A stretch of DNA of 26,082 nt, taken from positions 1 through 26,082 of the IMG/VR virus record IMGVR_UViG_3300045931_000167, one strand, 5' to 3'. The translations under genes were made by a program, and so were the position numbers. Shown here piece by piece: positions 3,011 through 17,928 of this stretch. Positions within the stretch are counted from its first letter, which is position 1; every line of letters begins with the position of its first letter. The notes under the pieces are model-generated. The model was not told the origin of the DNA and ran no database searches. It saw nothing but the letters and a program-made list of their open reading frames with translations. This DNA is from a virus.

Positions 3011-3271
3011 CTAGGTTGTCCTTTCAAATAGTGATCGTGATCTTCCGTGAATCCATGCCTTGTACTTCTCTGGCGTGCCCCAGCACGCGATCGGTGCGTT
3101 GTTGTTAATCCATAGAACGATCTCGAACAGTGCCGCGCGGTTATCGTGATCCGCAGTCGCGCAGGCCTTCGCCAGGTCGTTCGACAGCACCGCCTCGAGG
3201 AACGGCCCAGTCGGGATGTGCTCGAGGACGTAATCGGTCAGCGTGGAGATGGTCGTCGCCGGGATGGTCAT
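3011..3271 (-). CDS. small conserved-type phage protein (86 aa)
   Basis: Starts at 3271 in an ATGA overlap with the zinc-ribbon frame. The protein has the pattern 'IPTGPFLEAVLSNDLAKAC..AD..N..AL..I..W..N..P..CWG', which I recognise as a small, widespread but uncharacterised phage protein type with a conserved PTG-FL-AVLSNDL stretch and a CWG turn near the end. Length of 80-90 aa fits. Its enzymatic or binding role is not known. The overlap with the zinc-ribbon frame is evidence that the upstream frame is translated. Confidence 0.7.
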   Translation of the reverse strand: MTIPATTISTLTDYVLEHIPTGPFLEAVLSNDLAKACATADHDNRAALFEIVLWINNNAPIACWGTPEKYKAWIHGRSRSLFERTT

Positions 3272-3480
3272 AGATCCTCAATCGCGCCGCAGTCGAGACA
3301 CTTGATTCCCTCTTGAAAGCGCCACTCTTCGCCGCCGTCCGGCGCAACGACGCCCGTCCGGTATTCGCCCCCCACGTACTGCAGCCGTTCGGATCCGCAC
3401 GCGCCGCATACGACCGTCTCTACTCTTTCGTCCGTTTCCGCGGCGGTTTCTGGTCCTCGGTCGCCGGCGCCGGTGGCGGG
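3268..3480 (-). CDS. zinc-ribbon frame without a start codon, possibly the -1 frameshift extension of RecT
   Basis: The -1 frame relative to the RecT-like gene encodes 70 residues ending in CGACGSERLQYV ... IKCLDCGAIEDL, a clear two-knuckle CxxC/CxxC zinc ribbon. Its TGA overlaps the next ATG as ATGA. The frame is open from about 3672 to 3268, yet I find no ATG or TTG in it. The only GTG lies after the first CxxC and has no Shine-Dalgarno. The RecT frame crosses it at T TTT TTC (3486-3480), exactly phased for a -1 slip. Translation would give a RecT-linker-zinc-ribbon protein of about 408 residues. Alternatives are initiation at an unusual codon or a sequence error in the T tract. Confidence 0.5.
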   Translation of the reverse strand, partial: PATGAGDRGPETAAETDERVETVVCGACGSERLQYVGGEYRTGVVAPDGGEEWRFQEGIKCLDCGAIEDL

Positions 3481-4493
3481 AAAAAACTCTCCTGCGCAGC
3501 CTCCTCTGTTGCTGGTGCCTGCGCTGGTTCGGTCGCCGGCGCCGTGGCTGGCTCGGCTGCTGCTGGCGGGGAAACAGATATCTCGCCAGAGATCTGCTCC
3601 TTCGTGATCTGCGCATGCGGATCGCCCCAGCCCGGGTGCGCCAGGATCGTCTGCTTCAGGCGGTCGACGCCCTCAATTGGCACCTCGAAAGTGCGCGCCA
3701 GGTCGGGCGGGATCTGCGCGGGTGGTAGCGACTCGACCGGCATGGTCTCCAGTTGCGCTTCCTCGCGCACCAGCACGCCCCGCAGCACATGGGGCGCGTG
3801 GTATTTCTTCACACGCGAGATGGTTTTCCAGTAGTACATATCCCGCGCCCAGGATTGATACATCGCTTTCTGCGAGAGCGGGATCTGCTTTCCCTTTTCC
3901 CACACCAGGGCGTGATCGGCATCAGCTTCGGTGAACGCCACGCTGATTTCCTTACCCTGCCGATCCAGCATGGGTTTATACTGCCGTTCCTGGGGATTCC
4001 ATTTCTTCAGCCACAGCCTGCATCCCACGCAGCGGGTCCAGGGTGTGCCCTTGTGATCTTCCGTCCGTTCCACCCATTCGATGTCCCAGTCGTACCCCAT
4101 CTGCTGCAACTTAGCGGCTACCAGATCGTTTTCGATGCTGGGTCTGCCATTCACGAAATAGATATTGCGCATGCTGTCCATTTCGTTGAACCCCTGCGAT
4201 CTGCCAATTTGAATCTTCGACATGGCGGTGGCCACGGCCGCTTCCTCGGCCTTATCCTTCAGATCTGCAAATTCCCCGGACTGCACGAACAGGCGCGCCA
4301 GCGCGAGATCCTTGGCATAGATTTGCCTGAAAAGTTCCTGATCAGCCAGCGCCGACAAAGCCGCCGTGCGCTTGTCAAGATCGGGTATCAATGCCATCTG
4401 TTCAGCCGTCATACGCACGACGGCTGCTGGCGGTGCAGATATCGCCAGCGCGGCAGCCGGTAGTGGTCCCTGTGCTTCTTGATTCGGATGCAT
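3420..4493 (-). CDS. recT: RecT-like single-strand annealing protein
   Basis: A 357-aa protein whose ATG at 4493 has AAGGAG six bases upstream. Residues 40-260 show the RecT/Bet superfamily layout: a helical stretch (RQIYAKDLALARLFVQSGEF), an Ala-rich helix leading to 'IGRSQGFNEMDSMRNIYFVNGRPSIENDLVAAKLQQMG', a strand region with TRCVGCRLWLKKW, then 'VAFTEADADHALVWEKG' and a helix with SWARDMYYWKTISRVKKY ending HVLRGVL. Such proteins anneal complementary single strands and work with a partner exonuclease, here the YqaJ-type gene three genes upstream. The last 70 residues are a Pro/Ala/Glu-rich linker ending in basic KRTKE. That low-complexity tail carries a candidate -1 frameshift site leading to a zinc ribbon. 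Confidence 0.75.
   Translation of the reverse strand: MHPNQEAQGPLPAAALAISAPPAAVVRMTAEQMALIPDLDKRTAALSALADQELFRQIYAKDLALARLFVQSGEFADLKDKAEEAAVATAMSKIQIGRSQGFNEMDSMRNIYFVNGRPSIENDLVAAKLQQMGYDWDIEWVERTEDHKGTPWTRCVGCRLWLKKWNPQERQYKPMLDRQGKEISVAFTEADADHALVWEKGKQIPLSQKAMYQSWARDMYYWKTISRVKKYHAPHVLRGVLVREEAQLETMPVESLPPAQIPPDLARTFEVPIEGVDRLKQTILAHPGWGDPHAQITKEQISGEISVSPPAAAEPATAPATEPAQAPATEEAAQESFFPPPAPATEDQKPPRKRTKE
3480..3486 (-). other. candidate -1 frameshift heptamer T TTT TTC in recT
   Basis: In the RecT reading frame the codons run AGT-TTT-TTC-CCG, so the heptamer T TTT TTC fits the X XXY YYZ rule. A -1 slip continues into the zinc-ribbon frame. The following bases are very GC-rich, with short CGCC/GGCG complementarity, but I see no strong hairpin comparable with the tail-chaperone site. 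Confidence 0.4.
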
Positions 4494-5349: not shown

Positions 5350-5652
5350 TTATGAGTCCTTTCGTATCGGTGGTATGAGCGGCTTGGCCGCGGCCGCCTC
5401 GGGGCGGTGTTTCGGTTTGCGGAAGTCGCCGGCCTTGGGGCACTTCACAAAGTGGATCTCGCCACTCTCCTCGTACGGCGCGATATTGCCATTGAGGTGG
5501 CGAATCCAAAAGATCTTCAGGCCGCAGCCGGCGCAGACGCCTTCATCGCCGATGCGCTTGAGTAACCGCGCGGTGAAGTCGCGCGCCTGGTCCAGCTCGT
5601 CCTTGAGCCGCGTGACGTCGAGAATATCGGCCGCAGATGTGAGGTCGCCCAT
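5350..5652 (-). CDS. small zinc-binding-like protein (100 aa)
   Basis: Starts with ATG at 5652 as TAATG overlapping the exonuclease stop. A short helix of about 35 residues (RLKDELDQARDFTARLLKRI) is followed by VCAGCGLKIFWI and, about 25 residues on, IHFVKCPKA. The CxxC with a later H-x3-C suits one treble-clef or zinc-ribbon site; the same 'CxGCG..I.W....NG...P......HF..CP.A' layout recurs in small phage and bacterial proteins. It may recruit or stabilise DNA in the recombination complex, which is inference from its place between YqaJ and RecT. Confidence 0.64.
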   Translation of the reverse strand: MGDLTSAADILDVTRLKDELDQARDFTARLLKRIGDEGVCAGCGLKIFWIRHLNGNIAPYEESGEIHFVKCPKAGDFRKPKHRPEAAAAKPLIPPIRKDS

Positions 5653-6749
5653 TATTCCTCCTCGCGCTCGTTGTCGTGCCGGAACCAGATCCGCCTGACG
5701 CCGGCCTTCGTCGTGGTGTATTGCTCGACCAACTTGTCGCGCTCAGCCTGGTCCTTGATGAAGTTGGTCAGAAGCGCCCAGGCCATTGCTTCGAAGTCGG
5801 TCGACTTTCCGTCCTTCGCTTTGCGCCAGGTGAACCGGCCAGCGTCGTAGCGCAGGCCTTCGCACTCGTCGCCGATCGCCGCCTTGATATCGCTCTCGAT
5901 CTTCCCGCGCTCGGTGGTGTATTGTTTCTGCAGCCTGCGCACGTGGGCGTACTGCTCGAGCAGCGCGATCTCGTCAAAGGTCGCCTGGCGCACATCGGCA
6001 CTCTTCGCCTTGCCAAATTCGCGCTCGAGCCAGCGCCGCTCACCCTTTGATCCGGTGAAGGGCGGGCGCTCATTGCCGACCAGGAACCGGCGGTACCACT
6101 CGTAGAGGCGCTCGAGCATTGCGCGCTCGACCTCCATATCGCGCTCGAGTGTGTAGACGCGAGGCGTACCGCCGACGAGCGCAATCACGTCCCAGACGGG
6201 ATACTCCATCACGCTCATGTAGTGCCAGCACTGCACGCGGACGCGGTCCGGAATCTCGTCGGCCTCGCCGCCCCAGTTGTTGCGCTGCTCATGCGAGACG
6301 ACCTTCGCCTCGACCCCGCGCAATTCACCAGGGCAGAGACCATCGGGCGTGCCAATGAGACACGGAAGCGTTGGATGGCGATAGGTCTTACGTGGACGAT
6401 CGACAGTGCGCCCGGTCATATAGGTGTAGATCTCGAGTAATGCTGGTTCGATCACCTGGCCGGCGAAAACATGCAGCGGAGGCCTCTCATCGCTGAACTG
6501 TGAGATGCCTTTCTTCGCTGCTAGGACGTCCCACTCCGTGCGCATATCGTCGACGCCTAAGATCGCGGGAGAATCCGATCCACCGATCGCGTTGCTGCGC
6601 ACGCTCATATCCAGATCAGCCATCATTCGTTCAGCCTCCAGCCACAGCACGAGCGTCTGCGCGCACTGGGCACACGTCCAGTACCGGTCTACGAACTCAC
6701 TCCCCATGCGCTGGCACAAGTCACAGCGGGTATGATCCGCCAGCGACAT
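5652..6749 (-). CDS. YqaJ-type viral recombinase/exonuclease with N-terminal zinc knuckle
   Basis: A 365-aa PD-(D/E)XK nuclease. Residues 54-66 read AIGGSDSPAILG, the usual YqaJ start; E101 sits in GQVIEP; GTPDG places an aspartate at 136; VEAKVV gives the E-x-K pair at 147-149. W and Y residues follow in the Q-x-x-WHYM helix. These are the metal-binding and catalytic positions of the lambda-exonuclease-like family, which resects double-stranded ends 5'-to-3'. The C-terminal third is a coiled helix (YAHVRRLQKQYTTERGKIESDI) typical of phage YqaJ proteins. Unusual is the first 30 residues, with CDLC and CAQC forming a separate zinc knuckle. If the internal ATG near residue 43 or 48 is the real start, the knuckle would be lost. 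Partner annealing protein is RecT downstream. Confidence 0.85.
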   Translation of the reverse strand: MSLADHTRCDLCQRMGSEFVDRYWTCAQCAQTLVLWLEAERMMADLDMSVRSNAIGGSDSPAILGVDDMRTEWDVLAAKKGISQFSDERPPLHVFAGQVIEPALLEIYTYMTGRTVDRPRKTYRHPTLPCLIGTPDGLCPGELRGVEAKVVSHEQRNNWGGEADEIPDRVRVQCWHYMSVMEYPVWDVIALVGGTPRVYTLERDMEVERAMLERLYEWYRRFLVGNERPPFTGSKGERRWLEREFGKAKSADVRQATFDEIALLEQYAHVRRLQKQYTTERGKIESDIKAAIGDECEGLRYDAGRFTWRKAKDGKSTDFEAMAWALLTNFIKDQAERDKLVEQYTTTKAGVRRIWFRHDNEREEE

Positions 6750-15700: not shown

Positions 15701-17180
15701 CGAGCGCCTTCTTGGTCTGGTCGCCCTGCTCCTTGCGGCGTTTTGTTTCCGCGGCCGCCGCCGCATTGGCCGCCTTCTCTGCGTCTTCGCGCAGTTTCTT
15801 GTCGGCCTCCATCTTGTCTTGGGCGTCAGACCAGGACTTGCCGATGGCCTCGAATTTCTTCGTCAGGCCTTCCATGCCCGGGATCTTCTCGAGCAGGCTC
15901 AGCAGGCCTTTGAAGACCTTCATGAACATGTCGATGGCCCATTTGCCGACAGCCACGAAGCCGTCCCAGACGCCCTTCCAAAACTTCATCAGGTTCGTGA
16001 ACCACGGCTCGATGATGCCCCACAGAATGCCGAGCGCAGCCTTCCACAGGTTGATCAGCGGCGAGAATAGCGTGGACAGGAAATCAATAACCTTGTCGAA
16101 GGCAGCCTTGATCGCCGGCCAGTTGTTATAGACCCAGACGCCCAACAGCGTCAGTGCCGCGACCGCGCCGGTGATCGCGAGCGTCATCGGATTGAATGCC
16201 GCCGCCAGGCCGAGGCCTGCAACCGCCGATTTGATAGCCGCAAATGCGGCCAGAGCGCCGGCCACCGCTGTCGTGATGGCGGTGACTGCGACAGCCGCCT
16301 CCTTGACGGGACCGGGCAGCGATTCAAACCACTTCGCGAGATCGCCGATGACCTCGACGACCTTCTCGATGATGGGCGCCATCTTCGTAAAGATCGAATC
16401 GACCGTGTCGCCGATCTTCACCATGACGTCCTCGGTCGCCTGGTCGAGCCGGTGCATGGCGCCGCGCCATCCAGAGGCGGCATCCTCGGCGGCGCCGGCA
16501 AACCGCTCTTTCAGATTCGCGGTTACCGCCTGCGCCACCTGCTGCGTGGTGACCAGGCCTGCCTTTACTTTCTCGATCGCCTCCGGGACGGACGTCCCGA
16601 TCTGTTTTGCCACCGCATTCCAGACCTCGGGCCCGAATTGCTTTTCGAGCATCTTCATGTCCTTCGAGGTCGCCACCACGTGGCTTTGCATTTCGGCGAA
16701 GGACGCGCTCACCGCAGTGATCCATTCCGGTCCCTGCTTCAGGCCCGCCGCCGCGTCGACGAGCGCCGTCATCTGCTCCTGGGTATCTTCGGCTGATACG
16801 CCCAACTGCATCATCTGCTTCGCCGCCGGCCCGATGGTGTCCTCGAAGTCGAACATGGACTTCATTTCGAGGGCGGACAGGTTCTCGAAGATGGCCTCGG
16901 TTTCAGCGGTCGCTCCGTTCAATGCGACAAAGGCCCCATGCAGGAGTTCCACAGCGTGCGAGGCCTCGAGCGCCGCGGCGCCAAACGCCGTGAGGCCCCC
17001 CAGCGCGCCGATTGCGGCAACCGCGCCCGAGACCTTGCCGATCGCATCACCGATCGCCTCGAACCGCTGCGCCGTCTGCTGCGCGGCCTCCTGCGAGGCG
17101 CGCGTCATGTCGGCAACGGCCTTCAGGAACTGCTGGTTCTCTAATGTCGCGCGAGCTTTTAATTCACCTGCGTCGGCCAT
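12774..17180 (-). CDS. tail tape measure protein (1468 aa)
   Basis: The longest gene, just after the tail chaperone frameshift pair, as in most siphophages. Residues 1-285 are helical and contain the usual TMP-type start and a 'GASAEDT'-like stretch (LGVSAEDTQEQM). Residues about 290-350 are strongly hydrophobic with Ala/Val/Leu (AVAGALAAFAAIKSAVAGLG), followed by a Trp-rich amphipathic stretch (WKAALGILWGIIEPWFTNLM) that may insert into the host membrane on ejection. Residues about 440-830 are Lys/Glu/Ala helix. Residues 832-1191 are nine 40-residue repeats. A run of ten glycines follows near residue 1290. If fully helical the chain would span roughly 0.2 micrometre, suggesting a long tail. 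No peptidase or lysozyme domain is seen. Confidence 0.92.
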   Translation of the reverse strand: MADAGELKARATLENQQFLKAVADMTRASQEAAQQTAQRFEAIGDAIGKVSGAVAAIGALGGLTAFGAAALEASHAVELLHGAFVALNGATAETEAIFENLSALEMKSMFDFEDTIGPAAKQMMQLGVSAEDTQEQMTALVDAAAGLKQGPEWITAVSASFAEMQSHVVATSKDMKMLEKQFGPEVWNAVAKQIGTSVPEAIEKVKAGLVTTQQVAQAVTANLKERFAGAAEDAASGWRGAMHRLDQATEDVMVKIGDTVDSIFTKMAPIIEKVVEVIGDLAKWFESLPGPVKEAAVAVTAITTAVAGALAAFAAIKSAVAGLGLAAAFNPMTLAITGAVAALTLLGVWVYNNWPAIKAAFDKVIDFLSTLFSPLINLWKAALGILWGIIEPWFTNLMKFWKGVWDGFVAVGKWAIDMFMKVFKGLLSLLEKIPGMEGLTKKFEAIGKSWSDAQDKMEADKKLREDAEKAANAAAAAETKRRKEQGDQTKKALELAGQEEEARKKAAEAAKKAAEEAKKQLDAMSAGYEKLLGLAPDAAKAVGELFPFVTKNTAAVKMFGAAWDLLPEKLKRVIESALDLDAAFKTLGITSETKLRQGVADAEAAFWKLIASGKASKNDLQAAALAIEEANKKLAERLKNDTIPTFEDLNNGVGLATDAMKDFGGQLAVVTGQQLAALDKALKDTKKAIKEHEDAWHAIGEKTPEELQKEVEAAKKAEEDISQSTAKGSEEQLKARKRTLEATIEVYKRQGQQVPKEIKKELEQVERRLEESTKKQRNIWEEYFKYVKERLKAFGHDVLDAAFDRMFGPDPNAELKKQEAALTESLAERGREWDAYVQENAADLAETTANWESALAEQNQETENALAEAREKYDEYAADVAQSIEEIKQEHADAAAEEIQDARDALQEKQEDYAEYASEVQERIDEIHEAAAEALEEEEEDLRDSLRDRAQDYEDFVEDVNTKLSRLGEDTQQNIEDETHDTKRNIEDRQKDYNRYAEDTQRKIAQVRQKNKGVYSEEEHDLEISLKRKQEDLNDYVREQNEKLERYVRDQKQRQDREVADAKEGLDRKTRDYDQWQADTLAKHDERVQKIKEDEEQGVTDATEALGKKKAELDKFEAETIASIDRIRVSHEQEQEAEIAKQLEALGKKKSDYEKHVADILAESDKAVAGINADYQQTTTDLATELAKQKAEYEAFVLSITGPDGELAELKSQHTTIWTDIGNLAKGALSDIGRSLMHLASEEIIGALIGKSKTLKGVWDDISGVFDSVKGKGKDIADIDWGGPGTGGGGGGGGGGAGAAAGGLTGWISAISGVATAISSIVGNFQMAGMNKTLDLIENYTRYTKIYTGEQSDSILKTGHEIRNILRNFEGNYWGVTVPAYGEIITAASGIDEKLNLYVVPDVKAIRGFTDQMAGNTASMLRLLENIERAGPRTINVTVTATGVTTEEAARVMGNQIATNLTRQLMPQ
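13608..14687 (-). repeat. nine 40-residue repeats in the tape measure
   Basis: Residues 832-1191 are nine consecutive units of exactly 40 residues. Each starts with an acidic or basic residue, an aromatic or Leu and, two residues later, another aromatic: EWDAY, KYDEY, DYAEY, DYEDF, DYNRY, DLNDY, DYDQW, ELDKF, DYEKH, then EYEAF starts a tenth. Spacing stays at 40 across all nine intervals although the sequence between is diverged. Confidence 0.92.
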
Positions 17181-17599
17181 GACGTCTTCCTACCGGCGGC
17201 CCGATCAAGCCGATGCACCAGCATGTCGGGGTTCTGTGGCCCATAGCGCGATGGCGGCCGCTCGCCTTTGACTGCCCAGCGCATGCCCTGTGCCGGCACC
17301 GGGGCGAGAATGACTGCGGGTGTGCCCTGCTCGCGCGCCGTCGTCGGTGTGTCCTCGCGCGCCCTGCGATACGCCATCAGCACCTGCGGCTCGATGACAC
17401 GACCATCCGTGCGGTTCGAGTTATAGATCGCGGCGGCAACCATTGCAGCGCACCATTCGCTGAAGTCCTGCTCGATGAATGCGCGCTCGGTAAGCGCGTT
17501 GAATTCCTCGAAGGTCAGGCTCCAGAGTTCGGCTTCGCTACAACGGAGGTCGTATCGTCCGATGGCCCAGATACTAAGCCAGTCTCTGGGCCCATCGTG
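17159..17599 (-). CDS. -1 frameshift extension of the tail assembly chaperone (gpGT type)
   Basis: A frame with no need for its own start: from the A AAA AAC site it is open through 'HDGPRDWLSIWAIGRYDLRC', 'LTFEEFNALTERAFIEQDFSEW' and 'AAAIYNSNRTDGRVIEP' to a stop at 17159. The L-T-F-E-E-F-N-L and N-x-N-R stretch is the usual T-domain pattern of lambda-like gpGT proteins. The fusion would have 110 residues from gpG plus 146 from this frame, 256 in total. The ATG at 17443 inside it is not needed and would remove the conserved part. In known phages the fusion binds the tape measure and tube protein during assembly at a low ratio to gpG. Confidence 0.86.
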   Translation of the reverse strand, partial: HDGPRDWLSIWAIGRYDLRCSEAELWSLTFEEFNALTERAFIEQDFSEWCAAMVAAAIYNSNRTDGRVIEPQVLMAYRRAREDTPTTAREQGTPAVILAPVPAQGMRWAVKGERPPSRYGPQNPDMLVHRLDRAAGRKTSWPTQVN

Positions 17600-17928
17600 T
17601 TTTTTATTGCGCGCTCGACGTCGTGCCAGCGTCCGGTGGCCGCATAGATCAACATCGGCGTCAGATCGAGAAGCATCGAGGCGTCGACGTGTTCATCCAC
17701 CCACTCCTGCGTCACTGCGGGGTTCCGCTCGCGCAGGCCATAGTAGAGAATCACGCTCATCCGCTCGGCGTCTTGGAATGCCGTGCTCAGCCCATCGCCC
17801 TTGAATAGCGACACCTGGTGGTCCGCATCGAGCGCCTTGAGTGCGCGCAGGCTGAAGCGGAGTTCCACCATCGTGCCGTCAATCTCGATGAGAATGGGCT
17901 TGCCCGGTTCGGGCTTTGAGTAAGTCAT
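17515..17928 (-). CDS. tail assembly chaperone, gpG type (137 aa)
   Basis: Lies between the tail tube gene and the tape measure, the usual place for gpG. It opens MTYSKPEPGKPILIEIDGTMVELRFSLRALKALDAD, a beta-sandwich-like start followed by helices (LSTAFQDAERMSVILYYGLRERN; DEHVDASMLLDLTPMLIYAATGRW). The frameshift site falls at residues 109-110, so unshifted ribosomes add only a 27-residue low-complexity tail ending in PNSGA. It would act in the cytoplasm, coating the tape measure while the tube polymerises. Confidence 0.82.
   Translation of the reverse strand: MTYSKPEPGKPILIEIDGTMVELRFSLRALKALDADHQVSLFKGDGLSTAFQDAERMSVILYYGLRERNPAVTQEWVDEHVDASMLLDLTPMLIYAATGRWHDVERAIKNTMGPETGLVSGPSDDTTSVVAKPNSGA
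17564..17605 (-). other. programmed -1 frameshift site: A AAA AAC plus hairpin
   Basis: In the gpG frame the codons ATA-AAA-AAC give the slippery heptamer A AAA AAC at 17605-17599. Six bases later GGCCCAGA (17592-17585) pairs perfectly with TCTGGGCC (17571-17564) across a 13-base loop. Slippery site, spacer and a GC-rich stem all fit a stimulated -1 frameshift into the gpT frame. Confidence 0.9.

Follow-up and report, generated by a model that had tools for sequence, protein, structure and literature searches.

The window analysed here is a 26,082-base virus record, a single metagenomic contig with no host genome attached. Its minus strand carries, in order, a gene for a YqaJ/RecE-like exonuclease, two more genes, a gene for a RecT-like annealing protein and a run of small genes (Table 1). 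The annealing protein has a profile match to PHROG 4171, 'RecT-like ssDNA annealing protein' (E 2.1e-5), and its structural model is nearest to lambda Red-beta (Z 5.9 over 140 residues), with weaker matches to Rad52, Mgm101 and Sak (Z 3.7-4.8); all Z scores are under 8, and Foldseek alone returned no significant match. It resembles annealing proteins of the RecT/Red-beta type in its PHROG 4171 sequence, in the exonuclease upstream, which is likely its partner, and tentatively in its predicted fold, but it differs from them in having no match to Pfam RecT. Proteins of the RecT/Red-beta type are known as single-frame proteins and are not known to carry a zinc ribbon.

Table 1. Features of the annealing-protein locus in the window.
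Feature	Position	Strand	Remarks
YqaJ/RecE-like exonuclease gene	5652..6749	-	Pfam YqaJ E 3e-13; PHROG 434 E 2e-47
recT-like single-strand annealing protein gene	3420..4493	-	357 aa; stop TAG 3422..3420
Internal Shine-Dalgarno-like AGGAGG	3500..3505	-	13 nt upstream of the heptamer
Slippery heptamer T TTT TTC	3480..3486	-	in phase, at about codon 335 of 358 in recT
Open -1 frame, 134 codons	3268..3672	-	holds the heptamer and the zinc ribbon; TGA at 3270..3268
Part of the proposed 408-aa fusion translated in the -1 frame	3268..3486	-	linker and zinc ribbon
Zinc-ribbon domain VETVVCGACGSERLQYVGGEYRTGVVAPDGGEEWRFQEGIKCLDCGAIEDL	3268..3423	-	GTA at 3423 overlaps the recT TAG
Next gene, 86 aa	3011..3271	-	ATG 3271; ATGA overlap with the zinc-ribbon stop

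The initial annotation proposed that a -1 shift within recT fuses its product to a zinc ribbon, and the sequence elements from which it argued are in place. The ribbon frame is exactly -1 relative to recT and open from 3672 to its TGA; it contains no ATG or TTG, and its single GTG (3375) falls between the two CxxC pairs. The heptamer T TTT TTC is in the right phase for a -1 shift, the 0 frame reading ..GAG AGT TTT TTC CCG.., and an ATGA overlap joins the end of the ribbon ORF to the next gene. A -1 shift at T TTT TTC would give a 408-aa product whose predicted junction peptide ends ..ESFFPATGAGDR. Other routes to a fusion were rejected. The 0 frame past the recT TAG does not encode the ribbon, which disposes of an in-frame fusion or readthrough of that stop, and the -1 frame of an in-phase G GGA AAG at 3894 in recT closes before the ribbon frame opens.

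The ribbon itself recurs among viruses. It turned up at about 30 loci in scans of 2.9 million viral contigs, and an alignment of 27 of these has four Cys, a TGV motif, a DG pair and two Glu as invariant positions. The AlphaFold2 model of the window ribbon (pLDDT 94.7) is a beta-hairpin ribbon of three strands. Its best PDB match is chain 7ui9_S, which we take to be TFIIS (probability 0.99, E 0.095), and serine-integrase chains come next; ribbon-bearing chains were among the PDB matches, none of them at an E value below 0.001. Judged by the alignment and the predicted fold, the -1 frame of the window encodes a genuine zinc ribbon.

No curated family claims this ribbon, and the best profile scores, Lar/RalR included, are well below cut-off. 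The Lar/RalR proteins (PF14354) are, like the window ribbon, small CxxC/CxxC phage proteins, and RalR presumably adjoins recT in the E. coli Rac prophage. Membership was nevertheless rejected: the window ribbon scores 13.7-15.3 bits vs a PF14354 cut-off of 28.6, and TIGR03655 gave a best E of 0.017, in 2 of 16 members. Among annotated phage isolates (50,697 phage records) the window RecT had no relative and the ribbon none that was credible, and a search of GTDB genomes for relatives found none. In isolates with distant relatives of the annealing proteins of loci L058, L049 and L060, only hypothetical small genes, by annotation, follow recT.

How much does the arrangement in the window say about frameshifting? 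That the ribbon is in the -1 frame says little by itself: wherever a stop and a start overlap as NTGA, the second gene is in this frame without any frameshift. The open -1 frame and the missing starts within recT are likewise weak, or 'cheap', evidence: the recT tail is rich in Ala, Pro and Glu and has no codon beginning with TG, and each -1-frame ATG, GTG or TTG upstream of the recT stop would need such a codon (Cys or Trp). The absence of a start is informative solely in the four codons (GAG ACG GTC GTA) that separate the recT stop from the first Cys.

The heptamer T TTT TTC belongs to the class H_HHU_UUY, which is, with V_VVA_AAR, among the most efficient in E. coli (PMC4066793). In-phase sites of the form X XXY YYZ, with YYY being AAA or TTT, occur only five times in the 7,966 codons of the window's genes, and just two of these have six identical bases, namely T TTT TTC in recT and A AAA AAC in a tail-chaperone gene. 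A synonymous-codon null for the window overlap gave P 0.08-0.10 for the heptamer, which is therefore only suggestive when taken by itself. The upstream AGGAGG has an anti-Shine-Dalgarno (anti-SD) energy of -11.7 kcal/mol, lower than in any of 302 windows sampled from the genes on this contig, although its synonymous-codon P is 0.33, since the hexamer encodes Glu-Glu. Its spacing of 13 nt falls inside the 6-17 nt over which SD-like stimulators were sought upstream of E. coli candidates (PMC4066793). A search for hairpins downstream of the window site found none beyond chance (z 0.24 to 0.5). Downstream stimulatory structures are common at -1 sites but are not required.

The second six-base site lies in a tail-chaperone-like gene (17928..17159, minus strand), just before the tape-measure gene. 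A -1 shift at its in-phase A AAA AAC, at 17605, continues into an ORF at 17443..17159. Because this is the arrangement of lambda gpG/gpGT (PMC5009743), the phage very probably uses -1 frameshifting elsewhere in its genome.

Relatives were compared in a set of 15 non-redundant loci with the ribbon in the -1 frame at the end of an annealing gene. Alignment of homologues, which the initial annotation had offered as a check on frameshifting, gave a divided answer: the three loci that lack a start all have a heptamer, but several relatives have an ATG, GTG or TTG of their own. A separate ATG-started ribbon, which had been named as an outcome against frameshifting, does occur, in L030, L040 (window RecT type), L060 and L062; the ATG of L040 is SD-led and in the +1 frame. 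GTG or TTG starts were seen in L007 (GTG with an SD), L014 (GTGA), L017 (TTGA) and L067, and free ribbons with an ATG start in L012, L022 and L057. Since many relatives start the ribbon at their own ATG, GTG or TTG, frameshifting, judged from these sequences, is not the rule for the whole ribbon family, nor is it conserved in every recT-ribbon pair. A plain in-frame RecT-ribbon fusion was seen in none of the relatives examined.

Three relatives take yet another form. L009, L018 and L046 have a common ATG inside the annealing gene and no heptamer, with a strong SD in L018 and L046. A ribbon translated from this ATG could have a long N-terminal extension encoded over the annealing gene. It stands in the -1 frame within Thr-Trp codons, about 48-61 codons before the ribbon.

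In the open frame, an ATG, GTG or TTG before the first Cys is missing only from the window, L049 and L058 (three of the 15 comparable -1-frame loci). Each of these has an efficient in-phase heptamer, T TTT TTC in the window, A AAA AAG in L049 and A AAT TTT in L058. In L049, CCGGAGGG, with an SD-like GGAGG, is followed after about 9-10 nt by the heptamer. In L058 the heptamer is followed by a 6-nt spacer and an 8-bp stem-loop, with the annealing-gene stop within the loop, and L017 has the same heptamer and spacer before a 10-bp stem of different sequence (folding z, with the hairpin itself folded, -2.8 in L058 and -5.9 in L017). As far as the end of the heptamer, L058 and L017 use the same codons for the residues that they share (Gln, Ala, Ile, Glu, Asn, Phe), whereas the next three codons, which also encode the same residues, all differ.

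Other loci carry signals of varying quality. L007, with the window RecT type and a -1-frame ribbon, encodes the same Ser-Phe-Phe as the window site by AGT TTT TTT, which contains the heptamer T TTT TTT; an SD-like stretch precedes the site by 7 nt, and a small GCGCC/GGCGC hairpin follows after 6 nt. In L002 the open -1 frame begins exactly at a heptamer, A AAT TTA, and the only start is a distant GTG without a strong SD. L005 (4849-5001) has a conserved -1-frame ribbon and no useful start, with a T TTT tetramer alone at the matching Ser-Phe. A far-upstream G GGA AAA in L005 was rejected as a functional site, as a shift there would cut RecT in its core; it is still included in the tallies below.

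Efficient heptamers are found in 3/3 start-less loci vs 3/12 others (one-sided exact 20/455 = 0.044, by hand). For the 15 loci together, we used a null in which the protein is kept and synonymous codons are shuffled. Heptamers occur in seven of 15, including the unusable L005 site, where 2.4 are expected (P for six or more = 0.012). The published efficient set gave 6 loci observed vs 2.7 expected (P 0.03), and the last 60 codons alone gave 5 observed vs 2.1 expected (P 0.04). P under the synonymous null spans 0.012-0.042 overall; with one representative per group it is 0.036 to 0.097. Elsewhere in the same loci heptamers are rarer than the null predicts (14 vs 22.5), and the null is therefore somewhat conservative. 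Some tests and groupings were chosen after inspection of the data. We regard the excess across loci as moderate evidence, modest statistically (P about 0.01-0.1, by null).

We suggest that SD-assisted -1 ribosomal frameshifting at T TTT TTC yields a minor 408-aa RecT-zinc-ribbon fusion, and from the sequence comparisons we give this reading a probability of roughly 0.55. Most ribosomes would finish at the TAG and release the 357-aa annealing protein. A minority would pause with the internal AGGAGG bound to 16S rRNA and T TTT TTC in the P and A sites, and would slip back one base, the Phe tRNAs re-pairing on TTT TTT. Now in the -1 frame, the shifted ribosomes would run past the recT stop and append the linker and the zinc ribbon. 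Similar ribbons interact with nucleic acid or with protein partners. We infer the slippage itself, its rate, and a role for the ribbon as an extra DNA- or partner-binding arm on a minority of the oligomer subunits; this tagged minority could recruit a partner. In favour of this reading, a conserved ribbon presumably needs to be translated, yet has no ATG, GTG or TTG before its first Cys. Frameshifting probably operates, on this comparative evidence, at the window locus and in some relatives, and as a reading of the window locus it is plausible and better supported than any rival. Against it count the lack of downstream structure in the window, the modest heptamer excess, the relatives with their own starts, L005, and the single contig.

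The rival that survives best is translational coupling, in which ribosomes that finish at the recT TAG re-initiate at once on a non-standard codon (GTA 3423, ACG 3417 or GTA 3411) and make a free ribbon of about 50 residues. It draws on the ordinary starts that L014, L017, L030, L040 and L007 have at the same spot, on the free ATG-started ribbons, and on a GTAG at the position of the recT stop common to the window, L005, L009, L018 and L049 (GTAA in L046). GTA is not known as a bacterial start codon. We consider re-initiation unlikely: SD-like pairing before the candidate codons of the window is weak (-2.9 to -3.5), an ATG or GTG is only one or two base changes away and yet absent, and L009, L018 and L046 have the upstream ATG instead.

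Programmed transcriptional slippage, with RNA polymerase adding one U on T6C3 so that the fusion is read in one frame, we think improbable. The window T6CCC does resemble a U5C4 slippage site in a Roseiflexus insertion sequence (PMC5009743), and L007 has a run of seven T. But six T is, in our judgement, a short run, the window site has no strong hairpin around it, the start-less L058 (AAATTTT) and L049 (A6G) lack a common U-run, and this mechanism leaves the internal SD without a role. That the ribbon is not made at all, being a decaying gene with a lost start or a contig error, would fit a single metagenomic contig and the missing start codon but is very improbable, as all metal ligands and the core motif are preserved, no stop interrupts the frame before the ATGA overlap, the ribbon is undamaged in other relatives that have no start close by, and an error in the T count would have to recur in L007, where the 0-frame stop and -1 ribbon are likewise kept.

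The ribbon lies directly behind annealing genes of four types (at least four sequence families): the window RecT type, PHROG 3657, Pfam RecT (L060, L062, L067) and the type of L017 and L058, which no family model claims and which we assigned as annealing by position and resemblance. Other relatives of the window RecT (L003, L006, L031, L033-L039) have no ribbon, or have it elsewhere. PHROG 3657 is annotated as 'unknown function' and sits between the YqaJ exonuclease and the ribbon in L018, L014, L009, L046 and L049; because of this place, it may be an unrecognised family of annealing proteins. The linkage to the ribbon thus flags an unnamed family as a candidate that can be tested in recombineering assays.

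The annealing genes of L017 and L058 align only over their last 76 residues and not in their front parts. Since the two loci share this tail, the heptamer, the hairpin and the ribbon but not the front parts, the sequences look as if a tail-plus-ribbon cassette (L017:3936-4060, L058:789-901) had been swapped between different cores. A broader reading is that the ribbon is a phage-wide cassette placed behind unrelated annealing proteins, made either free or, independently in several lineages, as a -1 frameshift fusion, and that phages thereby tune the share of zinc-armed subunits; a recombination protein would then be under frameshift control. We offer this tentatively, with somewhat less than even confidence.

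Most known cases of frameshifting in phages concern tail chaperones and insertion sequences. The proposed fusion resembles lambda gpG/gpGT and other tail chaperones in a heptamer-driven -1 shift near the 3' end of a gene that extends a minority of the product at its C-terminus; the difference is that here the gene encodes an annealing protein, and the added zinc ribbon is a free protein in other phages. With E. coli dnaX it has in common an SD-like element inside the gene, about 10-13 nt ahead of a homopolymeric heptamer, L049 (A AAA AAG) being the closest look-alike. In dnaX, however, frameshifting shortens the product and a hairpin follows the site, whereas in the window the product would be longer and no hairpin is seen. 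In the literature that we searched, there was no description of a frameshifted annealing protein, nor of PHROG 3657 as an annealing protein. Ribosomal -1 frameshifting itself is already known; it is an annealing protein as its target that we did not find described. If the reading is correct, a frameshifted annealing protein would be a new class of target, and the subunit composition of a recombination filament would be set in a new way.

Other small cysteine-rich proteins were seen at these loci. A small CxxC protein is encoded at 5652..5350 (minus strand) of the window, between the exonuclease and the annealing gene, and has a look-alike in L003. Shortly downstream of recT in the ribbon-less L031 (4932), L033 (4981), L037 (4925) and L045 (5389) lies a different cysteine-rich protein, with the pattern C..C.G....C..C.
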